NCBI GenBank assembly: GCA_003978765.1
Contig: QNYO01000089.1
Span: 1 to 44,566 of the forward strand
Origin: Hydrogenimonas sp.
GTDB taxonomy: Bacteria > Campylobacterota > Campylobacteria > Campylobacterales > Hydrogenimonadaceae
Reading direction: 5' to 3'
Length of the DNA stretch: 44,566 bases
The translations under genes and the position numbers were made by a program. This document shows, piece by piece, positions 9,997-44,566 of this stretch. Every line of letters starts with the position of its first letter. The stretch's first letter is position 1. The notes below the pieces were generated by a model. The model saw only the letters and a program-made list of their open reading frames with translations, did no database searches and was not told the origin of the DNA.

Positions 9997-10715
9997 TGAA
10001 TCTCCTGTAATAGTTGTTCATACTCCTGCCAATTGCCAGGAACACCAAGGTGTTGTTGTGTCTCTTCCAACTCATCTAAGAATCTATCTCGTGAGACTTT
10101 AACCGCCCCTAAACGCTGAAGATGGTCTGAAGGAATTTGACAATCAATAAAGGCAAAATCCCACGCTTTAGCCAGCTCTACCATATGTGCCAATGCAACT
10201 TTGGAGGCATCCGACTTGAGTGAAAACATCGACTCACCAAAAAATGCCCGTCCTGTACTGATCCCATAGAGTCCACCCACCAACTCATCGGACTCGTCAT
10301 AGACTTCAACAGAGTGGGCAAATCCACGATAGTGAAGCATGGTATAGCACTCAATCACTTCAGGAAGAATCCAGCTCCCCTCTTGTCCACGACGTGGCAC
10401 TTTGGCACAGTGTTGCATCACTCTCTCAAAATTTCGGTCCAATTTTACTCTAAAGTGTTTTTGTCTAAGCTTTTTTCGCAGTGATCTATGAATTTTAAAT
10501 TGGTCTGGGTAGAGAACAAGGCGTGGGTCGGGAGACCACCAAAGAATGGGATCCCCTTCATTGTACCAAGGAAAGATCCCCTGCCGATAGGCCATTAAGA
10601 CCCGATCGGGATTGAGATCACCCCCATAGGCAAGTAACCCCTCTTTCATCGCACGACGGGGATTGGGAAAGATATAGTCAAACCCCAACCGAGGAATAAA
10701 GCGTTGGTTAGACAC
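9990..10715 (-). CDS. aat: Leucyl/phenylalanyl-tRNA--protein transferase
   Basis: Aat transfers Leu or Phe from tRNA to N-terminal Lys or Arg of proteins, creating N-degrons recognised by ClpS. The 241-residue sequence shows the family signatures: PNPRRAMKEGLLAYGGDLNP, YRQGIFPWYNEGDPILWWSPDPR (in part) and the later FAHSVEVYDESDELVGGLYG region with GRAFFGESMFS. The start is GTG at 10715, overlapping the clpA stop by 8 bases. Its position directly after clpA places the degron-writing enzyme with the degron-reading adaptor and the unfoldase in one transcription unit, which supports the function. Confidence 0.96.
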   Translation of the reverse strand: MSNQRFIPRLGFDYIFPNPRRAMKEGLLAYGGDLNPDRVLMAYRQGIFPWYNEGDPILWWSPDPRLVLYPDQFKIHRSLRKKLRQKHFRVKLDRNFERVMQHCAKVPRRGQEGSWILPEVIECYTMLHYRGFAHSVEVYDESDELVGGLYGISTGRAFFGESMFSLKSDASKVALAHMVELAKAWDFAFIDCQIPSDHLQRLGAVKVSRDRFLDELEETQQHLGVPGNWQEYEQLLQEIQW

Positions 10716-12894
10716 GCGACTTCACCTTAAAGTTAAGTTTACCCGCTTTTACCCCAAAGGTAACCTCTCCGCCATCTTTCAATGCCCCAAAGAGGATCTC
10801 TTCAGTCAGTGGTGCTTTAATCTGCTCTGCAATGACTCGGCTAAGAGGTCGCGCACCCATCGCCTCATCATACCCCTCTTTTGCCACATACTCTTTCGCA
10901 GCATCAGAGAGCTTAATGACAATCTTCTTATCAGCCATCTGAGCATTCAACTCATCAATAAACTTGTCAACAATCTTTTTCACATGCTCAAGCTTGAGAT
11001 GATCAAAGCGGATAATTGCATCCAGACGGTTTCTAAACTCTGGTGTAAATGCCGATTTGATAGCACTATCATGCTTCGCTTCATTCTTAGCACCAAAGCC
11101 CATCACATTGGCTTCTGTTGCACCCACATTTGAGGTCATAATGATAATGACATTTTTAAAATCGGCACGGTTCCCTGTATTATCAGTCAACATCGCATTA
11201 TCCATCACCTGAAGCAGTACCTGAATCAAATCAGGATGTGCTTTTTCGATCTCATCAAGCAATAAGACGGTATGCGGATGTTTACGAATCGCTTCGGTTA
11301 ATTGACCACCCTGCTCATAACCGACATACCCTGGAGGTGCACCGATAAGGCGACTCACCGCATGCTTCTCCATATACTCACTCATATCAAAGCGTTCAAA
11401 GTGGATACCGAGTGCATTCGCCAACTCAATAGCAAGTGCTGTTTTTCCGACACCTGTTGGTCCTGCAAAGAGGAATGAACCGACCGGTTTATTCGGTGCA
11501 CCCAACCCTGCACGCGATCGTTTGATTGCTGCGGCAACCTCTTCAACGGCACGATCTTGACCAATGACACGGCTTTTGAGTGTCGCTTCCAGATTCTTAA
11601 GTGTCGCCAAATCATCACTAGTCACACGTGCTGGTGGCAAGTTCAACATACGACTCACCGCCTCTTCAATATCTTTCTCATTTACATTGCGACGTTTGCG
11701 TGCCTTCAGTCGGAATGATGCCCCCACCTCATCGATAATATCGATCGCCTTATCGGGTAAGAAACGCTCATGCATATACTTAATTGAGAGGTCAATCGCT
11801 GTTTTAAGTGCCTTTTCACTGAAGCGGACACTGTGGTGTGTCTCATACTTATGCTTCAATCCCTTAAGAATCTTCAGCGTATCTTCAAAGCTTGGTTCAC
11901 TCACATCCACCTTTGCAAAACGGCGACTCAATGCCCGATCTTTTTCAAAGAAGTTCCGATACTCATCAAAGGTTGTTGCACCGATACACTTCAAGCTACC
12001 ATTGGCAAGGGCTGGCTTCAGAAGGTTGGAAGCATCCATACTCCCGCCATTGGTGGCACCTGCTCCAACAAGGTTATGGATCTCATCAATAAAGAGTACC
12101 GCATTCTTACGCTCTTCAAGCTCATGAAGAACCCCTTTGAGTCGCTTCTCAAAATCACCACGATACTTTGTACCAGCAATCAATGCCCCAATATCGAGTG
12201 CAAAGAGTTCGGTATCTGCCAACATATCTGGTACATTGCCTTCAGCAATCTCAAGAGCAAGCCCTTCAGCAATTGCGGTCTTTCCAACCCCTGGTTCCCC
12301 GACAAGGACAGGGTTATTCTTCTTACGACGACAGAGAATCTGCATTACCCGCTCAATCTCTTGATCGCGACCAATCACAGGGTCAATCTTTCCAGCTTTG
12401 GCACGTTCAACAAGGTTGACAGTATATTGACTTAAATACTCACTACCCGGCTCTTTTGTGCCTGTTTCACTCTTAGGTTCACTAATCACTTCAAGAATAC
12501 TCAAGCGGTTAATCCCCTGTGAATTCATCAAAGCAACCGCAAATGAGTGCTCTTCATGAAAGATCGATGCAAGCAGATCTCCAACACTCGCCTCTTTCTT
12601 ATCCGCATTTTGTGCATGACGAATCATCTGCTCAATCACACGTGAAAGGGCAACCGTCTCAAATGGTTCACGTGTCACCCCTTCAGGCAATGGACGGAGC
12701 GATGAGAGAAGATGCTGATTGATCCGTGCCTTCATCTGCTCGACATCGGCACCTGCCGCTTTAAGAATCTGTTCACCCTGCGGTGAAAGAAGTGCAGCAA
12801 GAAAAACATGCTCCACAGTTAAATATTCATGACGGTGCGTTTTTGCATACTTCACCGCCTCTTTAAAAATCTCATTTAAATCTTTACTTATCAT
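10708..12894 (-). CDS. clpA: ATP-dependent Clp protease ATP-binding subunit ClpA
   Basis: ClpA is the AAA+ unfoldase that feeds substrates to ClpP. The 728 residues contain a Clp_N domain (about 1-140), a first AAA module with Walker A GEPGVGKT (199-206) and [10 protein letters not shown], and a second module with Walker A GPTGVGKT and Walker [13 protein letters not shown]. An MGF tripeptide takes the place of the ClpP-docking IGL loop, just before a TPEFRNRLD motif. Together with the upstream clpS this is ClpA rather than ClpB or ClpC. The ATG at 12894 is separated from clpS by a structured 120-base gap. No clpP is in the window. Confidence 0.96.
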
Positions 12895-33034: not shown

Positions 33035-36000
33035 CTAAATGCGTTGACTCAAAAGTGGACGAATCATCGTCTTATTTCTCTTATTGGTCAACAGATAGAT
33101 ACGTTTAAAGCGACTCACAAGCTGTTGGTTAGGGGCACCATTTAAGAATCGGATACGCTTAGCATTGGCAAATGCAATCAACTCTTTCAGATAGGTTGGG
33201 TGCAAGACACCAATCTCATCCAAAATACAGTGGAAATAGGTTGCATCCTCCTCATTATGGCTATGGCGTAATCCTAAAGCCGTCGCTAAAAGGGAGACAT
33301 TGACAATCGTTTTGATCATCACATCGGTACCATTTGAGCCAACCTCATCGAGTGAAACTTGCCACCCTGTATCGTTACCATTCTCAATGGCACGAATCTC
33401 TAAGGTATAGGTATCATCAAGCCTTAACTCCGACTTTCCAGAGCGATCAAGCTCATGACGAAGCTCTTTAATCAGCTGAATTGCACGGTAGTGTCCATCA
33501 AGTTTTGATCTATCATGGTTAAAGAGATTGTTACGCCCTGTAAAGTCATACTCTTCACTCACGGTTTGGAGCTGTTCAAGTTTTTGCAATATTTTGTTGG
33601 GACTATGTTGTACACGCAGATCGATCATATCGATGACACTAATCCCCTCAAGATCACGCAACATCAATTTGATCTTATCAACCACACGGTTCACTTCATC
33701 ACGTGCCTCAAGGAGATCTTCGGTCTGTTTACTTAGCTGATTAATGGTCAATGCAAAGAGGTTGGAGATCTCCTCTTTAAATTGATCGATCTTTCCATCA
33801 TCCACAAAGTTCTTCAGTTCATCAGCCGCATGTAGAACACTCTCTCTATCACTTCCATAACGTACTGACAAATCAAGGGTATTGGATGCACCAATATCAC
33901 GGTAGAGGAGATCTTGCTGGGTCCGTATTGTATCGATCATCTTTTGGGCCTGATTCTCATGGGCATGAATATGTTTGATCAGATCATGAAGCCTCTCATC
34001 GGTTGGTTTCACTGAACGCTTCTGATGCTTCTGTAAAAGTTCAGTAAGAATTGGGTCATCCACCTCTTTTAAATCATTACAAATGGCTTGATAGGCTGTT
34101 TCAGAGGCTTGAATCGATCGATAAAGCTCTTTATGCTGTGCCTCATACTCTACCTGCATCGTTTGTAGTGCCCGACTCTTCTCATCCAACTCCATCTGGT
34201 AGCGATGGAGGCGTAATCTCTTCTCTTCAAGCTGATCAAAATGGTCTTTCTTATGGACAATATATCTCTGAACAAGCTCTGAAATCTTCTCAATCTCTTG
34301 AAGCTTCTTATCAATCCCATCGATTTGACGCTTATAGTTTTCGACCAGAGCAACATCGACACCATCTTTTTGCAACGCCTCATACTCTTGCTTTTCGATC
34401 TCTTCAAGACGCTTCTTATAGGCTTGGCGTAGGCTCTCTTCTTTGGCTTGGAACTTCTGCTCTTCACTCTTCCGTTTTCTCTTTAACTCTGCAATCTTCT
34501 CTCGCTTCTTCTCTAAAAGTTGCTTCAGTGTACTCTCGATCTCACCTTTGCATGCTGTCACACGATCTTTAAGGGTTTGACATGCCATGCTTGCCTGTTC
34601 AAGAGCCTCTTTCTGCTTCTTAACCGCTTCCTCTTTGGTCTGTTCTGCCCGTTTTTGGAGTTCAAGATAGTTATCATCTGCTTTTAAGGACTCATTTTTG
34701 AGTTTTGGCAATGCAATCTCTTCAACACGTAGTGCCTCATCGATCTGACGTTGCCGACTTCTCTCCTCTTTTAAGCGGTTGCGAAAGCTCTTCTCTATCT
34801 CACTCTTCTCCTCTTCAAACCGCTTCTTAATTGAAGAGATTTGTGATGTCACCTCTTCAATCGCTGATTCGATAGAGGCTCGTGAGTAGTTCGACTTCTC
34901 CAACTCCTCACTATCGATTCGTATGCCATAGATTGAATCTGTTATTTCAGATAGGCGAGGATTCAACTGGGTATTGAGGAGTACCTCCTCTTTTAAGATT
35001 GTAGTCAGTGTCGCTTCATGTGGATGATCCACTTTTCGAATAAAGCTCAAAAGTGTCTCATCATCGACCGATAAAAGACTATGCAAACGATTAAGCTCCT
35101 CTTGTGGAGCTTTGAGTGCATGCTCATAGCGTATAGAGAGGTTTTCAAGTGCCAGTGCCTCTTCTCTCTCAATCGCCTCAATCGACTTAATCACCTGTTG
35201 AAGCTCGGCACGATACTTCTCAATCGCTTTTTGAGCCTGTTCATAAGCTGCTTTGGCCTGCGCTACTTCTTTAGAGGCACTCTCCAACTCCTCTTTGAAA
35301 AAGGTGCGGTTTTTCATCTCAATATAGGCTTTATAGGCTTGCTTCTCCGTCTCATCTGCCTGTTTTGCCTCAGCTTCAAGTTTTAAGAGCTCTTCCTGCT
35401 TCTTCTTTTCATACGCTTCACGTTCACGCTCATAGGTAGCATCGATCTCTTCAATCGCTGTCTGAAGTTCATCTTTAATCTTTCTTAGTGCATCACTGTC
35501 TGCCTGCAGCTGTGCTGTAAAGTTTGCCCTCTCCTCTTCTCGTAACGCTTGGAACTTCTCTTTAAGTGAGCGTTGGGCATCGGTCAACTCATCATAGAGC
35601 TTTTGCAGATGCACTTTTTCTCGCTCCAAATCACGCTTTGCATGATAGAGTTCAAGCTTTTTCTCAATATCTTGTGCCTGATACTCTTTGAGAAGCTTCT
35701 CAGCCTTTTTCACATCACTCTTTAACAGATTGGTCTGATCACGCAGTTGGTTGCGTTGACTCTCTAACGCCCCCTTTTTCTGAGCAAAACGCTTTTGGAA
35801 ATCATCCAGTGATGCCCTTTTATTCGCAATCTCCTTTTCTAACTGCTCTTTTTTCTGCTCAAACGCTTTTTGATTACTCAAAAATTGATCGATATAGGCC
35901 TGCTTCTCTTGCTCTATCGTGCGATACGCAACCAGTGCCCGTAAAATCGCATCAATCACCTCTTTATTCTCATCAAACTTGACCACATCTTCATAGCGTC

Positions 36001-36667
36001 CATTAAAGCTCTCAATCGTGCGGTTGATCTGATCAAGATCGATTGAATCGACAATCGGAATCGCATTGGAGATGGTCTTTTGTATGCTTGAGGCATCAAG
36101 TTTGGAGTTGATAAAGATGTTCGAGAGCACCTGAACAAAGTTACTATGCTCCTCTTTCATATCAAAGAAGGCATACTTTCTCCATCCAGGCCCTGCTTTA
36201 CCATAGAGAATATCGCGATACTCCGATAGGGTACTGACTGTTTCACTCATTTCATACCCCATCTGTCGCAAGTGTCGCCACACCTCATCGGGTGAGCGTG
36301 CGATCTGATCTTCAAAAAAGAGTACCTTATCATCAATCGGCTCTTGTTCTACGACAAACTTAAATTTCACACCACTATTGGCACTACGATACGCAATCAC
36401 TAAAATATGCCCATAACCGTTGGTATAACGATAGGCAATAAAGGCATTGCTCTCTTGAAAGTAGTACTCCCTAAAACCCCGTTTTTTACGAATGTTAATA
36501 CCTAATGCACTATCTTCATGGACACCATAAAAGTAGAGTACCGATCGCAAAACTGTCGTTTTACCCGCTCCATTAGCACCCACCATAAGGGTATTTCCAT
36601 CGACCTTAACCTTTGCAAATGGAATCGATGCGGCATTGACATAGGTAATAGATTCAAGCTGATACAT
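33035..36667 (-). CDS. MksB/JetC-like SMC condensin ATPase
   Basis: A 1210-residue SMC-like ATPase. Walker A is GANGAGKTT (30-38) near the N-terminus. Two very long coiled-coil arms (about 240-490 and 600-850) flank a small hinge-like region. At the C-terminus are the signature SLDEVGSNGTD (1105-1115) and Walker B HCILDEIG (1146-1153). The length and head layout fit MksB/MukB/JetC rather than canonical SMC or SbcC, and there is no zinc hook CxxC. It overlaps the MksE-like gene by 14 bases and follows the MksF-like gene, the standard Mks order. Mks complexes extrude DNA loops; Wadjet versions also cut plasmids with JetD. JetD is not seen here. Confidence 0.82.
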   Translation of the reverse strand: MYQLESITYVNAASIPFAKVKVDGNTLMVGANGAGKTTVLRSVLYFYGVHEDSALGINIRKKRGFREYYFQESNAFIAYRYTNGYGHILVIAYRSANSGVKFKFVVEQEPIDDKVLFFEDQIARSPDEVWRHLRQMGYEMSETVSTLSEYRDILYGKAGPGWRKYAFFDMKEEHSNFVQVLSNIFINSKLDASSIQKTISNAIPIVDSIDLDQINRTIESFNGRYEDVVKFDENKEVIDAILRALVAYRTIEQEKQAYIDQFLSNQKAFEQKKEQLEKEIANKRASLDDFQKRFAQKKGALESQRNQLRDQTNLLKSDVKKAEKLLKEYQAQDIEKKLELYHAKRDLEREKVHLQKLYDELTDAQRSLKEKFQALREEERANFTAQLQADSDALRKIKDELQTAIEEIDATYEREREAYEKKKQEELLKLEAEAKQADETEKQAYKAYIEMKNRTFFKEELESASKEVAQAKAAYEQAQKAIEKYRAELQQVIKSIEAIEREEALALENLSIRYEHALKAPQEELNRLHSLLSVDDETLLSFIRKVDHPHEATLTTILKEEVLLNTQLNPRLSEITDSIYGIRIDSEELEKSNYSRASIESAIEEVTSQISSIKKRFEEEKSEIEKSFRNRLKEERSRQRQIDEALRVEEIALPKLKNESLKADDNYLELQKRAEQTKEEAVKKQKEALEQASMACQTLKDRVTACKGEIESTLKQLLEKKREKIAELKRKRKSEEQKFQAKEESLRQAYKKRLEEIEKQEYEALQKDGVDVALVENYKRQIDGIDKKLQEIEKISELVQRYIVHKKDHFDQLEEKRLRLHRYQMELDEKSRALQTMQVEYEAQHKELYRSIQASETAYQAICNDLKEVDDPILTELLQKHQKRSVKPTDERLHDLIKHIHAHENQAQKMIDTIRTQQDLLYRDIGASNTLDLSVRYGSDRESVLHAADELKNFVDDGKIDQFKEEISNLFALTINQLSKQTEDLLEARDEVNRVVDKIKLMLRDLEGISVIDMIDLRVQHSPNKILQKLEQLQTVSEEYDFTGRNNLFNHDRSKLDGHYRAIQLIKELRHELDRSGKSELRLDDTYTLEIRAIENGNDTGWQVSLDEVGSNGTDVMIKTIVNVSLLATALGLRHSHNEEDATYFHCILDEIGVLHPTYLKELIAFANAKRIRFLNGAPNQQLVSRFKRIYLLTNKRNKTMIRPLLSQRI

Positions 36668-37208
36668 AACGATTCACCTCTTTGACACTCTTGAAAAAAT
36701 CGACCAGATAGTTGTATGACGTTAAGACCACATAGCGCTTCTCATACGGATCTTCAAGTGCCATAAAGCCATCTCTCTCCATCTTTTTAAAAATCTCTTC
36801 ACACTTTTGAAAGAGATCTTTCCCACCAACCCCGTTAATCTTCTCAATACGCTCTTTAATCGCAATATTATCGGTTGCTGCTTTGGCCAGATCGATTGGA
36901 CTTCCGCGCCAATTCACATTAAAATGCTCATCATATTGGTAGAAGATCTCAATATAGTCAAGGAGTTGCAAAATATTGGCCAATTTTGCTTCAACCTGCG
37001 ACTCTTGCAGCTCTTTAGAGAAGTAGTAGTAACCTGCTCCATACTGTAGCTCAAACCCTATCGGTTTAAAGTAGGCTTCAAGAGTCTCAATGTTTTGATC
37101 ACAAATCTCAAATAGCCGTCTTTCCACTCTATCGGGGCTATTTTGACAGATAAACTTCCCTTTACTGAGTCGCTCAAAAATCTCTCTGGTTTGACGTGGC
37201 AAATCCAT
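36654..37208 (-). CDS. MksE/JetB-like condensin subunit
   Basis: A 184-residue protein between the MksF-like and MksB-like genes. The sequence FICQNSPDRVERRLFEIC followed by YFKPIGFELQYGAGYYYFSKE resembles the winged-helix core of MksE/MukE proteins, with a GYYY-type segment. In the complex this subunit dimerises and bridges the kleisin. It starts 4 bases after the MksF-like stop and overlaps mksB. The family call relies mostly on gene order, size and this segment, so homology should be confirmed by profile search. No transmembrane or catalytic motif is visible. Confidence 0.7.
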   Translation of the reverse strand: MDLPRQTREIFERLSKGKFICQNSPDRVERRLFEICDQNIETLEAYFKPIGFELQYGAGYYYFSKELQESQVEAKLANILQLLDYIEIFYQYDEHFNVNWRGSPIDLAKAATDNIAIKERIEKINGVGGKDLFQKCEEIFKKMERDGFMALEDPYEKRYVVLTSYNYLVDFFKSVKEVNRYVSA

Positions 37209-37212
37209 TCTT

Positions 37213-38394
37213 TTACCTCTCTTTTGGATAGATCACAAGATATTCATAGTTATTGTAGATGCGATATTCATCGCTAAGGATATAGTCATGGGCATAGAGA
37301 CCTGCCATATCACAAAAGGCACCCAAACGCTCTTCAAAATCGACAGAAAAACTAAACTCTTTGTTTATGATAAAGGTAAAGAGATCGCTTTGACTCTCTT
37401 GAAACTCCAGATGCAGTGCATCAAGATCGAGCAGATAGGTTTCAACCGCTTCCTCATCAAAAAATTCAGCCTCAATCTCCTCATCCTCTTTCCGTGTTGG
37501 CAACGCTCTTCTTTGCTTCTCATACCACGATTCAACATACTCTCCAAACTCTATCGTCTGCCCATAGGTTGTCTCCAACTGCGATGAAAATTGAATCTTT
37601 GGCAAAAGTGCTAAAGGTGTGAGGCTCTTTCTAACACACATCTCAATATTGGTTAGCTCTCTAATCTCATAGGCATTTTTGAGCTCTTTAAGGCGGGTAA
37701 TATGCTTTACAAAGGTGACATCAGGGCTGACACGGTTGATATAGTCAACAACCTGTCGCTGAAGATCGACCAGTGAGATACGCATCTGTGTTAAGTAGGC
37801 TTTGAGGTGGTAGTAGAGCGTTGCAGTCGCTTGTGGAGCGATATGTTTAAAAAAATCGGCCTCTGCTGAGAGCATCGTCTCAATTCTCTGATCAATAGCC
37901 ATCAACTGTTCAAGCTTCTCTTTATAACGCTGAAGCTCGATCCGCTTAAGAGCAAAGGCATCGGCAGATTTGTAGGTAAGGTGAATATGCTGATGGAGTT
38001 TGATTAAACTCTTTGAGATTTTGAGAGGGATCTTCTTTAAGATACGATCGATACGTTTAATAAAACGTTGCCGCCTCTCATAGGTATCGGCGTTGTTATA
38101 AAGGAGGATATTATGGCTAATATCATCGATCCAATCACCGATATTGCCGATCTCAATCTCATCATTTGAATCCAAGACCGATTCAAGAAAGGTTCTGAAG
38201 TCCTCTTCCAACTCTACCAGCCCATCGTTGGCAACAAGCAATCCTATTTGAACCAACCGCTCAATTTTGCCATCTTTTGTCAACGATCTGGCATTTGCAA
38301 GTGTGACAGCACTGTCACGTTTTAAGAAGAGATATTCAATCAGATCACTGTTTGCTGAGAGGTTTTTCAACAAACGTTTGACGGTCAACTGCAT
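37213..38394 (-). CDS. MksF/JetA-like kleisin subunit
   Basis: A 393-residue mostly helical protein, first gene of the three-gene condensin operon. The N-terminal part (about 1-70) looks like a winged helix (SDLIEYLFLKRDSAVTLANA). The middle is helical with coiled-coil character (about 110-215), and an acidic linker follows (EDEEIEAEFFDEEAVE, about 302-317). The C-terminal part would contact the ATPase head. Size, order and composition fit MksF/JetA, but I see no single diagnostic motif. An AAAAGG ribosome site precedes the ATG, and a TACAAT -10 box is close by. Confidence 0.68.
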   Translation of the reverse strand: MQLTVKRLLKNLSANSDLIEYLFLKRDSAVTLANARSLTKDGKIERLVQIGLLVANDGLVELEEDFRTFLESVLDSNDEIEIGNIGDWIDDISHNILLYNNADTYERRQRFIKRIDRILKKIPLKISKSLIKLHQHIHLTYKSADAFALKRIELQRYKEKLEQLMAIDQRIETMLSAEADFFKHIAPQATATLYYHLKAYLTQMRISLVDLQRQVVDYINRVSPDVTFVKHITRLKELKNAYEIRELTNIEMCVRKSLTPLALLPKIQFSSQLETTYGQTIEFGEYVESWYEKQRRALPTRKEDEEIEAEFFDEEAVETYLLDLDALHLEFQESQSDLFTFIINKEFSFSVDFEERLGAFCDMAGLYAHDYILSDEYRIYNNYEYLVIYPKER

Positions 38395-38471: not shown

Positions 38472-39380
38472 TTAACAGACCCGATTGCGTCCACTCTTCT
38501 TCGCTTCATAGAGTGCATCATCGGCACGTTTAAGAGCTGGTTCAATCTGATCCTCATGCTCAAAATCAACTTCTGCCACCCCAAGACTGATAGTAAAGCT
38601 CAATGTTTTACCCTCATCATATGGAATCTTACTCTTTTCTACCCGCTTTCTAATCTTCTCTGCCACCTTTTTGGCATCTTTATAGGCGGTATTGGGCAGA
38701 AGCAGTACAAACTCCTCACCACCAAGGCGACAGGCAACATCACTCTTTCGTTTGGCTTTTCTTAAGAGATTGCCCAAAGCAATAATCGCTTCATCACCAA
38801 CCTTATGCCCATAGGTATCATTAATGGTTTTAAACTTATCGATATCAAGCATAATCAATGAAAGAGGTCTATTCTCGCGTTTGGCAAGCGCAAAAAGCTC
38901 CATCGAGATCTCTGAAAAGTATCGTCTATTATAGAGCTTTGTCATGGAATCGGTAATCGCAAGCAATTTCAACTCCTCTTGCGACTTTTTCAACTCATCG
39001 ATCAACTTCTGCATTGCAAGCTCTCTTTGCACCCGTGCAAGGAGCTCTTTGGGACGGAAAGGTTTTGTCACATAATCAATCCCACCAATATCATACGCCT
39101 TCTCTATCGATGTTTCATCGGTTTTGGCAGTAATAAAGATAATCGGAATATCTTTTGTCTTTTGATTAGACTTCAAGTGTTGACATACATCATACCCATC
39201 CATCTCAGGCATCATAATATCAAGTAGAATGAGATCCACATGCTTCTTATTGGCAATCTCAATCGCACGCTCTCCATCAAGCGCAGTAATCACCTCATAA
39301 CGATCACGTAACAGTTCAACCAAAATATCGGTGTTCAACTCAGTATCATCAACCGCCAAAATGACCGGTTTTGTTTCCAT
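38472..39380 (-). CDS. REC-GGDEF response regulator (diguanylate cyclase)
   Basis: A 302-residue PleD-type regulator that makes cyclic di-GMP when phosphorylated. The receiver domain (about 5-120) has the phospho-acceptor D54 in LLDIMMPEMDGYD, K86 region FITAKTDE and K106 in YVTKPF. The GGDEF domain (about 140-302) has the catalytic motif GGEEF (220-224) and an intact inhibitory I-site RKSD (211-214) five residues upstream, so product feedback inhibition is expected. The cognate kinase is not adjacent. A good AAAGGA ribosome site precedes the ATG. It lies between the large helicase gene and the condensin operon on the same strand. Confidence 0.93.
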   Translation of the reverse strand: METKPVILAVDDTELNTDILVELLRDRYEVITALDGERAIEIANKKHVDLILLDIMMPEMDGYDVCQHLKSNQKTKDIPIIFITAKTDETSIEKAYDIGGIDYVTKPFRPKELLARVQRELAMQKLIDELKKSQEELKLLAITDSMTKLYNRRYFSEISMELFALAKRENRPLSLIMLDIDKFKTINDTYGHKVGDEAIIALGNLLRKAKRKSDVACRLGGEEFVLLLPNTAYKDAKKVAEKIRKRVEKSKIPYDEGKTLSFTISLGVAEVDFEHEDQIEPALKRADDALYEAKKSGRNRVC

Positions 39381-39577: not shown

Positions 39578-39607
39578 GATGAGAAGCTTTACGATAACTT
39601 TCTCATC
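39578..39607 (-). terminator. Inverted repeat spanning the helicase stop codon
   Basis: GATGAGAA (39578-39585) and TTCTCATC (39600-39607) form a perfect 8-bp stem with a 14-base loop that includes the helicase stop codon. GTATATTTTC follows on the minus strand. It is a candidate terminator or 3'-end stabiliser. Confidence 0.4.
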
Positions 39608-42600
39608 ACAATCTTACAAAGAGCATGCTTAATCCGCTGATTCTTCTCTTTATTAAACCACACCACCACACTCTCCACCTCAATATCCTTAATCTCATAC
39701 CCTCTATTACGGTACTTTTGAATCTCTTTCTCAAATTTTCTAGAAATTTTTTCAAGAAGATAGTGATCTAAATAGATACAGAACTTTTCACACACATCAC
39801 ACCAATTCATCGTCACTTTAGTACCAGCAATCAACGCTTTAGAGGTACTGTTATGCCAACCTGAGACGCTAAGAACCACATTTTCAAGTGTCATAAGAAA
39901 GGTCTTTGTACCTATTGGAGGGTAGCGACGATAATCTTTGATGCGTGCTACATGGCTTGGTAAGATTGTCGGTAACTTTTGATCATTGGTTAAGACCATC
40001 AATGACTTTTTGGCTCTTGTCACTCCCACATAGTAGAGTCGTAAAAGCTCATCACTCATCGGACGGGATGGAATGAGAAGAATGACGGTATCAAACTCTT
40101 TCCCTTTGGCTTTATGGATCGTTGAAACGGTTACAGGTGCATTATTAGAAAAACCTTCAAGCTGAATCTCATCAAGGTAACTCTCCCAAAGAGAGAGGTA
40201 GTAGCGATCATATTCGCGTCGAAATCCATCGACCACCTGTTCAGCCAAAGATAGATGGGGTGAACCTTGAAAGTGACGGTGAAGCTCATCCAATGCACGG
40301 TCAAAATAGCTCTCTTCAATACGATGGCTCTGACCACACAACTGTTTGAGATAGATATCAATATAGTCAATCTCCTCCAAATTGCGTAGCCTAAAGCCTT
40401 TCCGATCCGATAGATAACGTGCTTGAATCCCTTGCTCATAGAGGGCTGAGTAGAGGTCGGAAGTCTCATCATTGGTATAGGCTAAGAGTGCAATGGAGTG
40501 GGTCGGATCGACCCGTTTGACCTGCTCAATGGCTGGAGCAGTCATATGAGGCGTTTCATACAGATAGAGCGTCACCTGCCCTCTCTCTTTTGCATAGGGA
40601 ATTAACGCCTCTGTTTTAAATCGTCGTTGCAGACGTTGCACCATATGGTTCGCCACATCCACAATAGAGGTTTGGCTTCTAAAGTTGGTGGTAAGGGCAT
40701 ACTCTTTATACCCCTCCTCATCATTGCCAAAACGCTCCCGATACTTCTCAAAAAAGATGACATCGGAGTGATTCACACCCTCTAAGATACACTGGTCATC
40801 ATCCCCTACAGCAATCATGCGTAGCTCCCCTTCATGCACCTCCCATATTGCTTCAACCAGTGCAAACCCATCGGGACTAATATCTTGAAACTCATCAAGG
40901 ACTAAGACCGATTTAAATGGCATCGTAATCTCACCATCACGCAGTTTTTGCGACGCTGTTCCTACCACTTTTTTTAAAAGATTATCATCCTGTCTCTCTT
41001 TATCATCCTGCACCTGCCGACCCATCAGCTGAAGTGCATAACTGTGAAAGGTGTAGATATCGACATCGTATGCTGTCGAACCAATCAGTTCATAAAGGCG
41101 GTTTTTAAACTCCGATACCGCTGTACGTGAGTAGGTGAGCATTAAAAATTGGTCGGGTTTAATATCCTCTTTGAGAATAAGTGAGGCGATTTTATGCACC
41201 AAAACTTTGGTTTTTCCACTACCAGGACCAGCCAAAACCATAATCGTTTTGCTCTCTTTATCCTCAATAATCGCCTTTTGCTCTTTAGAGAGTGCATTGA
41301 AAATCTTTTCATACCGTTTGCGTGTCATCGGTTGGGAAATCTGCTCTTTAAAGAGTTTATATTTGCGTTTGAAGCTATCATAGGGGGTGATGAAGTAGTC
41401 TTTCAAAAAGGTCATTGCATGTTCATAATTTTGTTGGAGTCGCTTCGCATACTCACCCATTATATGAATCGCCTCAATCTTGCGTTCATAGTGAGGCTTC
41501 ATCCGCTTTGCATACTCACTCTTGGTATATTTTCTCTTTTGATGAAACTTATCGGTCTTATAAATCTCCATCGGGGCATAGTAGATAAATCGCCCCTCTG
41601 CCAACTCCACCAACCCCATCACATGCAGATAGAAAAGCACCTTATCCACACTTTTCACAGGTTCAGAGATATGGAGGTTTTTGTGCAGTTCAAGCAGTGA
41701 AAAGGTGAGATGAACTTTGGTATCTTTACGCCCCGTATCGAGTTGTGTGACAAAGTAGTTGAGCACCTTATGAGCGATGGCATGTTTGCTCTCAAGTGAC
41801 TGCTTTAATGCCTCATAGTTTTTAATCTCTATATACCAACTATCATACTTCCGATTGACACGATAGAAGGAAAAAGAGTCCTTCAACTCTCTCCAAAGTT
41901 TCAAAATCTCTTTGACAAGCTCTGTTCGGTTCTCACCCTCCTTAATCTTTTTATGTTGAATCAACGCCTCATTGAGTGAGCGCATCGAGACAACCTCATC
42001 TTGAAGGTTTGCCAAATAATCGAGTAGAAAATACTCTATCTCTTTGATGGTCTGGTAGCGTCGTAAGGCACTCTTTTTGATATAGAGGCTTAAATCTTTA
42101 CCATCATTGATAATCCCCCACTCTTTTAACTGTAAAATCGCTGTGGCAATCTCCTCTTTTTTATAGCCAAGAATGTTTGAAATCTCATCCACCTGCACCG
42201 CTTTGGGTTTCCCTTTTCCCAAAATGGCACTAAGCACCAGTGTCAAACGCTGTTGCTTCTCTTCCTCAATCTGATACTTTTCACACATCTTATGCAAACG
42301 AGTAAAACTATCTTTTGCGACCGCATCGGCAAAGTAGCGTACCTTATTGCGATGACGCTCCAGATACCCCTCACGCTCCAGCTCCAATAGGGCTGTTTTT
42401 ACCTTCACCTCATAGCTCTTCTCACCATCTTCAACATCCCAATTTGCCGCTTTGGCAATCTCTAAAGCGGTCATTGTGACCTTTTTGGACTTCTGCTTTT
42501 TAAGCACCCTAAAGACAGCGTTAATTTCACTCGCACTCACTTTGTTTCTATTGAGCATTGCAAAGTGGTTATCTAAATCGTTCTCATCAAAGAGTAGTGG

Positions 42601-44424
42601 ACAGAATGCACGCAAACTTTTATCACGTGCACCACGCCCTGCCTCTTGTGCATAGCTCTCTAGAGAGTCTGATACTTCATAGTGGATCACCATTTGGATA
42701 TTGGGCTTATCGACCCCCATTCCAAAGGCGGTTGTTGCCACAACCACATCAATCTCATCATTCCTATAAGCCTGTACAATCTCCTGCTTTATCTCTGAAT
42801 CGAGCTTAGAGTGGAATGAGCAGACCCGCTTGGGGCTAAGGTCTTGACTCAACCTTTCAGCCACCATATCACACTCTTCTGTCGATGAAGGGATATAGAC
42901 GAGTGCTGGTCCTTGGCTCTCACTGAGCAGTTCCAAAAGGCTGAGATACTTCTGCTCTCTTTTCTCAATCGGCACTGCTTTATAGTCGAGGTTGGTGCGT
43001 TCGGGGCTGGCAAGATAGTATTGGAGTGTAAAACCGAGTGTTTGGCGGATGTAACTGCTAATATCCTCAATCACATTGGGTTTGGCTGTGGCAGTAAAAC
43101 AGGAGATGGGGATACGCTCTTGAAAGGGCTTCTCTTTTAACAAATCGTTGATAAACGCACCAATATAGAAGTAGTCGTGCCGAAAATCATGCCCCCATGT
43201 TGAAAGACAGTGCGCCTCATCAATCACAAAACGCTCAATCAGACGGTTTTTGAGCATCGAAAAGATGGTTTGTGAACGTAAACTCTCTGGTGCAAGATAG
43301 AGAATATCTGCCGTACCGTTAATCACCTTCTCAATCGCATCGGCACGCTCTAATGCATTCTGATACCCACTAATTGCCACCGCTGTAAAGTTTTCCACCT
43401 GGGCATTGAATGTTTCGATATGGTCACGTATGAGGGCTTGAAGAGGTGAAATGACAACTGTTAAGCTTTTGTAGTGTTTCGCCTTCACCAGTGCAGGAAG
43501 CCAAAAGGTAAAGGTCTTTCCTCCACCTGTCGGAAGCACTGCCAAAAACGACTCATCACGCAGTGTGGCTTCAACAATTTCACGCTGAGAGAGTGTTGCT
43601 CCACTCTCCAGTGTTGCATTGAGGCGTGGAAACTCTCTAAAGGAGTCAAAGCCAAAGGTATCTTTAGAGAACTCAATCAACCCATCAAGACTCTTTTGCA
43701 GATTAAAGCAGAGCATCTTTTGTACTGTCACAATATCGGGGTAGTCATAGAGAATCTTTGGTGGATGGGCTTTTATCTCAATATTGGGTGTTAAGAGTGC
43801 CAAAATATAGGCAAGTTCTACAGGGTGATTTTGAATGGCATAGAGAATCTTTTCGGGATTATTAATGTCCACATCTAAACACTTCTCAATCATCCTTTGT
43901 AAAAAATAATCACTATGTAAAACTTCAATCTTTGCTTCATCTTTTATCGTCTCAAAAAATCCGTGAAAAAGGGGTTTATCATGTAATAGTGAATAGAAGA
44001 TATTCTGCTGACTCTTTTTTAAGGATAGAAAGTTTTTCACACACTTCTCATACAACTCTCTTGAAAGCTTAGAGTCCTCCACAGGGTCATTGACAAAGAC
44101 ATCTTCACTTTTATACTCTTTGGGCAGGCTATGAAAGGTCTTTTCATTAAAGAGCAGAAGAGAGATAGGAAGTGTATCAACAACTACCCGCTTCTCAATC
44201 AGAGGAGAGAGTGATGTGTTTTTGAGAATCTTCCAGTCAAACTCGATAAAGTTATGACCAGCAATATAGGTCGGATCACACGCCTCTATAAACGCCTTCA
44301 CCTCTGCAAGCGATGAGGTCTTTAGTGTTTTATCACCATAAACAAGACCTATCTCTTTGATTTTAATCGGGTCGGTATCTTTGATGGCTTCAATATCTAA
44401 GAAGAGAATGTTTTGAGTGGACAC
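39589..44424 (-). CDS. Giant exonuclease / RecQ helicase / UvrD helicase fusion protein
   Basis: A 1611-residue DNA-repair-type enzyme with three catalytic modules. Residues about 1-130: DnaQ-like exonuclease with D10/E12 (LDIEA), N58/D63 (GHNFIEFDW) and D117 (NDPVEDS). Residues about 275-640: RecQ-type SF2 helicase with Walker A LPTGGGKT (297-304), DEAH (402-405), SCFTATAKP and YAQEAGRGARD. Residues about 1045-1480: UvrD-type SF1 helicase with AGPGSGKT (1065-1072), LDEFQD (1176-1181), GDDDQCIL (1207-1214), TNFRS, STIHKAKGKEFD and YVGVTRAKKSL. The RecQ zinc cysteines are not evident. The start is GTG 44424 with AGGAG 11 bases upstream. Roles in recombination repair or defence are both possible. 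Confidence 0.9.
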   Translation of the reverse strand: MSTQNILFLDIEAIKDTDPIKIKEIGLVYGDKTLKTSSLAEVKAFIEACDPTYIAGHNFIEFDWKILKNTSLSPLIEKRVVVDTLPISLLLFNEKTFHSLPKEYKSEDVFVNDPVEDSKLSRELYEKCVKNFLSLKKSQQNIFYSLLHDKPLFHGFFETIKDEAKIEVLHSDYFLQRMIEKCLDVDINNPEKILYAIQNHPVELAYILALLTPNIEIKAHPPKILYDYPDIVTVQKMLCFNLQKSLDGLIEFSKDTFGFDSFREFPRLNATLESGATLSQREIVEATLRDESFLAVLPTGGGKTFTFWLPALVKAKHYKSLTVVISPLQALIRDHIETFNAQVENFTAVAISGYQNALERADAIEKVINGTADILYLAPESLRSQTIFSMLKNRLIERFVIDEAHCLSTWGHDFRHDYFYIGAFINDLLKEKPFQERIPISCFTATAKPNVIEDISSYIRQTLGFTLQYYLASPERTNLDYKAVPIEKREQKYLSLLELLSESQGPALVYIPSSTEECDMVAERLSQDLSPKRVCSFHSKLDSEIKQEIVQAYRNDEIDVVVATTAFGMGVDKPNIQMVIHYEVSDSLESYAQEAGRGARDKSLRAFCPLLFDENDLDNHFAMLNRNKVSASEINAVFRVLKKQKSKKVTMTALEIAKAANWDVEDGEKSYEVKVKTALLELEREGYLERHRNKVRYFADAVAKDSFTRLHKMCEKYQIEEEKQQRLTLVLSAILGKGKPKAVQVDEISNILGYKKEEIATAILQLKEWGIINDGKDLSLYIKKSALRRYQTIKEIEYFLLDYLANLQDEVVSMRSLNEALIQHKKIKEGENRTELVKEILKLWRELKDSFSFYRVNRKYDSWYIEIKNYEALKQSLESKHAIAHKVLNYFVTQLDTGRKDTKVHLTFSLLELHKNLHISEPVKSVDKVLFYLHVMGLVELAEGRFIYYAPMEIYKTDKFHQKRKYTKSEYAKRMKPHYERKIEAIHIMGEYAKRLQQNYEHAMTFLKDYFITPYDSFKRKYKLFKEQISQPMTRKRYEKIFNALSKEQKAIIEDKESKTIMVLAGPGSGKTKVLVHKIASLILKEDIKPDQFLMLTYSRTAVSEFKNRLYELIGSTAYDVDIYTFHSYALQLMGRQVQDDKERQDDNLLKKVVGTASQKLRDGEITMPFKSVLVLDEFQDISPDGFALVEAIWEVHEGELRMIAVGDDDQCILEGVNHSDVIFFEKYRERFGNDEEGYKEYALTTNFRSQTSIVDVANHMVQRLQRRFKTEALIPYAKERGQVTLYLYETPHMTAPAIEQVKRVDPTHSIALLAYTNDETSDLYSALYEQGIQARYLSDRKGFRLRNLEEIDYIDIYLKQLCGQSHRIEESYFDRALDELHRHFQGSPHLSLAEQVVDGFRREYDRYYLSLWESYLDEIQLEGFSNNAPVTVSTIHKAKGKEFDTVILLIPSRPMSDELLRLYYVGVTRAKKSLMVLTNDQKLPTILPSHVARIKDYRRYPPIGTKTFLMTLENVVLSVSGWHNSTSKALIAGTKVTMNWCDVCEKFCIYLDHYLLEKISRKFEKEIQKYRNRGYEIKDIEVESVVVWFNKEKNQRIKHALCKIVMRKLS

Positions 44425-44566
44425 GGTGGGGTATGCTCCTAAAGTCTAATACACTTACTAAATAAAATTTCAAATGGTGTCAATCGAAATTCGAATCTAC
44501 CTCACACAATGTAGGGCTTGTCAGGCTTCGCCGACGGAAGAACTGTTTCCGTGCGCCGCAGCACAG
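44425..44566. other. Window-end region with closely spaced GC-rich hairpins
   Basis: Upstream of the helicase gene. The last 45 bases are GC-rich against an AT-rich background and contain three consecutive small hairpins: GGC-TTC-GCC (44524-44532), ACGGAA/TTCCGT (44534-44539 with 44547-44552) and GTGC/GCAC (44551-44554 with 44561-44564). A minus-strand frame is open from the edge to a TGA at 44480-44482 but has no recognisable protein. This may be the end of a structured RNA, repeat or mobile-element boundary cut by the window. Confidence 0.35.

Follow-up and report, generated by a model that had tools for sequence, protein, structure and literature searches.

A single bacterial protein joining a DEDD-type exonuclease domain to RecQ-type and UvrD-type helicase motors, possibly an accessory enzyme that degrades foreign or aberrant DNA

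The window (the whole stretch of DNA analysed, 44,566 nucleotides from Hydrogenimonas sp.) belongs to a 1.6 Mb assembly of 94 contigs, 80% complete, in which it is contig C7. Close to its right-hand end, a complete coding sequence of 1,611 codons lies on the minus strand at 39589-44424. It begins with a GTG codon that has AGGAG just before it, and its open frame of 1,618 codons opens only 7 codons ahead of that GTG. Because the contig ends 142 bases beyond the start codon (at 44566), the upstream flank of the gene is out of view. The features of the coding sequence are as follows.

39589-44424, minus strand: whole coding sequence, in the order DEDD-type exonuclease, RecQ, winged-helix array, UvrD and C-terminal beta domain (open reading frame and Pfam)
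44020-44424, minus strand: predicted DEDD-type exonuclease domain, residues 1-135 (conservation in 83 relatives, AlphaFold2 model, weak profile match)
43708-44019, minus strand: mostly helical connector, residues 136-239 (alignment and AlphaFold2 model)
42535-43707, minus strand: RecQ-type SF2 helicase core, residues 240-630, with K303 and DEAH at 402-405 (TIGR00614, structural match to 1oyy)
41545-42534, minus strand: about four predicted tandem winged-helix domains, residues 631-960 (secondary structure of the model, profile match of one part)
41320-41544, minus strand: long helices joining both halves, residues 961-1035 (model)
39925-41319, minus strand: UvrD-type SF1 helicase, residues 1036-1500, with K1071, DE at 1177-1178, R1249 and R1470 (Pfam, structural match to 2is1_B)
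39592-39924, minus strand: C-terminal beta-rich domain, residues 1501-1611 (model)

Four Pfam families score above their cut-offs in the protein, namely DEAD (279-453), Helicase_C (492-601), UvrD N (1045-1147) and UvrD_C (1417-1480), while residues 1-270, 640-1040 and 1490-1611 are without any Pfam family above its cut-off. AlphaFold2 models were confident for both residues 1-660 (mean pLDDT 88.7, pTM 0.85) and residues 600-1611 (mean pLDDT 87.5, pTM 0.84). Relatives were collected from named genomes (best 80 loci), IMG/VR, plasmids and further genomes, giving at least 92 loci. The 83 of 92 loci with a single open reading frame of 1,450-1,900 residues were aligned; at the other nine the frame is cut by contig ends, broken, or reduced to a UvrD half. 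All 83 full-length relatives have the same architecture, which rules out an assembly or frame artefact. That exonuclease-type, SF2 RecQ and SF1 UvrD modules share one chain, as the preliminary description had proposed, is close to certain. The residues that it had listed (D10/E12, DEAH at 402-405, LDEFQD at 1176-1181) all lie at those positions in the translation, and its statement that the motors keep their key residues holds across the family: K303, D402, E403, H405, K1071, D1177, E1178 and R1249, which include the Walker lysines and the DEAH and DE acids, are kept in 83/83 relatives, A404 in 81/83 and R1470 in 82/83.

The first motor belongs to the broad RecQ family (TIGR00614, 239.8 bits against a cut-off of 219.8), and its core superposes on the structure 1oyy over 349 residues (Z 26.6, rmsd 2.2). 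It is not a canonical bacterial RecQ, with 246.9 bits against a cut-off of 640.2 for the TIGR01389 equivalog. The zinc-binding cysteines of RecQ, noticed earlier as absent, are indeed missing: past C608, the alignment of 83 relatives holds no column with more than 40% cysteine. The separate RecQ encoded elsewhere in the genome of the window has cysteines after its helicase core. A PADLOC family labelled as a possible alternative Cas3 (C3a193) aligns through its positions 191-662 of 983 with residues 216-684 of the fusion protein (E = 2e-52), an alignment that extends beyond the bare helicase core.

Downstream of the RecQ core, residues 640-1045 had been described as having no recognisable domain, a view that the confident model and a profile match now revise. 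A profile of residues 625-1043 matched MntR/DtxR-type regulators, with a best E of 3e-4 across some 80 positions. Read by eye in the model, residues 631-960 form about four winged-helix units, the count of four being our own reading, and the region thus reads as a predicted winged-helix array. The second motor is of the UvrD/Rep SF1 type, with PF00580 at 99.4 bits (cut-off 23) and PF13361 at 59 bits (cut-off 25.6), and this half matches UvrD 2is1_B over 441 residues (Z 34.3, rmsd 4.5). The C-terminal domain is without a family match, and its profile found nothing better than E = 0.058 in the PDB. Pfam matches with E up to 1 included neither a PD-(D/E)XK nuclease nor a PRTase domain in the fusion protein; wHTH-PRTase_assc appeared at E = 0.008, below its cut-off.

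The N-terminal region carries D10, E12, H57-N58, D63, D83-T-L, H98 and N112-x-P-x-x-D117. Its four acidic metal ligands, in the ExoI, II and III motifs, are conserved in nearly all of the 83 aligned relatives (D10 in 82, E12 in 81, D63 in 82 and D117 in 81). Position 112, five residues before the last aspartate, we take to be the general-base histidine site of DEDDh enzymes; it is Asn in 78 relatives, Ser in three, Lys in one and a gap in one, and His in none. The residue expected of the DEDDh (DnaQ/TREX) group is thus absent, and of the earlier label of DnaQ-type nuclease, the DEDD-type metal ligands stand and the DEDDh general base does not. Profile evidence for the fold is weak. The best PDB matches of the exonuclease region were chains named exodeoxyribonuclease III (E = 9e-4), over only the first 90 positions and first two motifs; the PolC exonuclease followed at E = 0.088, and WRN is missing from the 16 PDB matches. 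Pfam placed no family above its cut-off in the exonuclease regions of 32 relatives, with DNA_pol_B_exo1 as the best (E = 0.0057). The model of this region is confident and its order of strands and helices fits DEDD enzymes by eye. In fold searches with whole models, the matches went to the two motors, and for the exonuclease half to the RecQ core, with no exonuclease chain among the matches listed; the folds of the exonuclease, the winged-helix array and the C-terminus were thus barely probed. Together, the conserved motifs, the predicted model and the weak profile match indicate that residues 1-135 are a putative DEDD-type exonuclease domain.

The substituted general base raises the question of whether this domain has lost its catalytic activity and only binds DNA ends, which would make the protein purely a helicase. 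Asn at this position in 78/83 relatives favours such a view, which is compatible with the other readings discussed below, but a dead domain would have no need of the four metal ligands, each of which is retained in 81-82 of 83 proteins, and we regard the loss of activity as doubtful. Between the exonuclease and RecQ modules, a cluster of four cysteines (from aligned residue 188 to about 243) is complete in 58/83 relatives; the other 25, the protein of the window among them, lack it and coincide exactly with the Campylobacterota clade in the phylogeny.

The fusion gene is found in a scattered minority of bacteria. Among Campylobacterota, 24/397 genomes and 15/68 genera carry it, counting one UvrD-only half form (genome G339) and one copy broken into three frames (G340). 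The genus of the window has five carriers in 18 genomes, two of them represented by pieces at contig ends. In Bacteroidota and Pseudomonadota, 13/295 and 13/298 genomes are carriers (about 4%), counts that leave out the centre genome, chosen as a carrier, and that take the phylum from the centre's named record. In a FastTree phylogeny of the relatives, which came with composition and long-branch warnings, the Campylobacterota members form one clade, so that spread between phyla appears limited. Genome G346 holds two copies from different subclades, and the free-standing UvrD half of G339 (L221:7328-9580, 750 aa) shares 60.8% identity with the corresponding stretch of the L211 protein of G346; tblastn found no exonuclease or RecQ remnant in G339. 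Broken copies also occur, as two open reading frames in L036 and L040 and as three in L210 (G340).

Canonical RecQ above cut-off was found in 108/397 Campylobacterota genomes, and the genome of the window has such a gene and a UvrD-like gene elsewhere. Carriers of the fusion have canonical RecQ in 12/24 genomes against 96/373 non-carriers (odds ratio 2.9, Fisher p = 0.016, uncorrected for relatedness), with G340, whose RecQ is in two pieces, counted as without. Nine named genomes were searched whole, and seven have a further RecQ-like match outside the fusion (E up to 1e-30); in G415 and G413 there is none among the matches listed, the second match in G413 being a piece of the split fusion. 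The fusion is thus not a general stand-in for housekeeping RecQ. Nor is it a common housekeeping RecQ form of the phylum, the finding that would have undone the preliminary description, given its presence in only 24/397 genomes. Since its relatives are confined to a scattered minority of bacteria, the gene looks like an optional DNA-processing enzyme, possibly defensive, rather than a standard repair gene.

Repair in a broader sense deserves consideration all the same. The protein could be an accessory repair or replication-fork enzyme like WRN, which would remodel stalled forks and trim 3′ ends under stress and have no role in immunity. Half of the Campylobacterota carriers (12/24) are without canonical RecQ above cut-off, and there the fusion could be the sole RecQ-type motor; the order of exonuclease and RecQ is that of WRN, most loci have no recurrent partner gene, and the neighbours in the window are not clearly defensive. 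The prevalence of only about 4-6% in three phyla and the excess of canonical RecQ among carriers weigh against a repair enzyme, and we consider it rather unlikely.

Mobile elements carry some of the copies. Of 322 plasmid records with a match, seven cover at least 80% of the query, and 13 IMG/VR contigs, taken by database membership, have matches that extend over more than 900 residues of the query. The gene adjoins ParA/ParB on the Aliarcobacter plasmid pACIB and lies about 6 kb from ParA on a Bacteroides plasmid. Such placements would suit a cargo gene that supports the replication, partitioning or survival of plasmids or integrative elements, but most copies found are on contigs other than demonstrated plasmids, and of 60 phage records with a match none reaches 80% coverage of the query, so a function for the element itself seems distinctly improbable.

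Several known systems share parts of this architecture. WRN has an N-terminal DEDD-type 3′-5′ exonuclease followed by a RecQ motor; it is not known to have a second motor, and the fusion protein is without the RQC zinc site. RecBCD, AddAB and AdnAB are likewise helicase-nucleases with two motor modules, and the UvrD half matches the UvrD-like subunits of these machines with Z of about 21-27; however, they are built from several chains, with, as far as is known, SF1 motors only and a PD-(D/E)XK nuclease, whereas the fusion protein joins SF2 and SF1 motors and a DEDD-type nuclease in one chain. Gabija GajB is a UvrD-type defence helicase to which PADLOC matches the UvrD half, and the G339 half form lies beside a nuclease; the fusion protein differs by its added RecQ half and exonuclease, and no GajA (OLD/TOPRIM nuclease) was found among nine proteins of the window scanned with PADLOC. 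DpdF, also a RecQ-like helicase, is the best PADLOC match of the fusion protein, but membership is excluded, with NCBIfam NF041063 at 214.5 bits against a cut-off of 550 and confined to the helicase core. RqlH resembles the fusion protein as an accessory helicase of RecQ-like type joined to a further domain, and it is described as genotoxic in the absence of its partner RqlI (PMC4670107); assignment to RqlH/PsyrT is rejected on the missing PRTase domain and on an alignment with PADLOC PsyrT limited to its positions 25-415 of 689. In Bacillus subtilis DinG, a DEDD exonuclease and a helicase are described in one chain (PMC12525004), but the helicase is DinG/XPD-like and there is no UvrD or RecQ half. 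Among the open full-text matches listed, judged by title and start of abstract and with subscription journals and preprints outside this scope, no paper describes the architecture, which is weak evidence for its novelty.

Neighbouring genes were called with a simple longest-ORF script rather than taken from curated annotation. When 1,177 neighbour proteins from 92 loci were clustered, no universal partner emerged; the largest cluster, present at 17 loci, is a loose response-regulator and signalling group. It includes the GGDEF-domain response regulator of the window, whose gene (38472-39380, minus strand) comes immediately downstream of the fusion gene. The ten neighbours in the window that were scanned with Pfam look mostly metabolic or regulatory. 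The operon nearest to the fusion gene (33035-38394, minus strand) encodes MksE, as identified by Pfam, a DUF3584 SMC-like protein and a 393-residue open reading frame without a Pfam match, resembling an MksBEF condensin-like operon; we do not call it Wadjet because PADLOC JetC reached only E = 8e-4.

A location in defence islands, which had been put forward for checking, is suggested by particular loci and not by overall tallies. With E up to 1e-12 and 119 proteins per set, 60 PADLOC families were matched near the fusion gene, 47 farther away and 40 around ordinary RecQ genes, which is not clearly above the controls and gives no clear defence-island signal. The near set comprised 119 genes at ±1 (90-1,200 aa) from 78 loci, at least three of them pieces of broken fusion copies; the far set consisted of those 119 of 179 genes at ±6 or 7 that came first in the list, which leaves out most Campylobacterota loci; and the control was 119 random genes of 276 around ordinary RecQ matches at 20 loci. 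The tallies are counts of families, and one protein may match several. Among the first 25 families of each tally, the far set included Wadjet, MzaA and HEC-06, and the control a run of PDC-S05 and PDC-S23.

Among particular loci, an Allochromatium plasmid with the fusion gene carries type I restriction-modification hsdRMS genes, and a Thiothrix plasmid with it carries type I-D CRISPR genes. At 5/79 cellular or plasmid loci from three phyla, one of which holds the UvrD-only half form (G339), a small class-I SAM methyltransferase and an HNH or SauUSI-like endonuclease adjoin the gene. In L039 (Clostridiales) and L064 (Tropicibacter), the methyltransferase is one gene off and is accompanied by a PLD-DEAD protein that matches PADLOC mREase_IV and is presumably SauUSI-like, judging from the build of SauUSI. 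In L205 and L211 (both G346) and L221 (G339), the methyltransferase, again one gene off, is found with an HNH protein or fused to one (L205:12325-14038, L211:12710-14455, L221:5475-7217). A rough estimate puts the chance of such methyltransferase adjacency at 2e-10, a figure that is biased because the family was picked for its adjacency. The other 74/79 loci are without a methyltransferase-endonuclease neighbour, and a gene is visible on both sides at 68/79. Queried against the 397 Campylobacterota genomes, the methyltransferase-HNH protein was found in eight, counted as nine loci, three of which touch the fusion family. Elsewhere, a methyltransferase or HNH protein of this kind also occurs without the fusion gene, twice beside a DEAD-type helicase, itself related to the SauUSI-like protein, and once beside an HNH protein.

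Taken as a whole, the protein is best explained as a DNA-processing enzyme with two motors in a single chain, encoded by an accessory gene. DEDD exonucleases, RecQ motors and UvrD motors generally work in the 3′-5′ direction. Both motors would thus be expected to move 3′-5′ on DNA, with the winged-helix array gripping the DNA between them, and the DEDD domain may trim an exposed 3′ end; given Asn at the general-base position, this trimming could be slow or subject to regulation. Acting from a DNA end, such a chain would track along the 3′ strand and shorten it, which runs opposite to resection for recombination. This polarity speaks against 5′-end resection and, together with Asn at the general-base position in 78/83 relatives, leaves the coupling to end resection that had been envisaged for this protein unsupported. 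Since trimming of the 3′ strand would give no 3′ overhang for recombination, a DNA-clearing role is preferred, in which foreign or aberrant DNA, from plasmids or phages or cut by restriction enzymes, would be unwound and degraded, either by the enzyme alone or after a cut by an associated endonuclease. We put the probability of this reading, an accessory 3′-5′ helicase-exonuclease that unwinds and degrades foreign or aberrant DNA, at roughly 0.45, and such DNA is somewhat more likely to be its target than the substrates of routine repair.

A more specific and speculative proposal, which we would not expect to hold in full, is that the family is an undescribed, widely scattered immune helicase-nuclease, in which motors of two superfamilies in one chain degrade invading DNA. 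It would plug into an interchangeable methyltransferase and HNH or SauUSI-like module, and the UvrD half alone would be sufficient in some loci. The fusion protein would solve the helicase-nuclease idea of RecBCD in another way, combining SF2 and SF1 motors in one chain with a DEDD-type nuclease whose active site is altered, and it may represent a novel type of defence effector that acts by degrading DNA. It would also permit a test of how two 3′-5′ motors of different superfamilies share one DNA.

Two further observations concern nearby genes. In L199 and L202, from two Campylobacterota genomes, related proteins of about 495 aa are encoded directly upstream of the fusion gene (gene -1). Farther away in the window, a 728-residue protein (10708-12894, minus strand) matches PADLOC PDC-M37B (5e-35) and DolB (6e-30).
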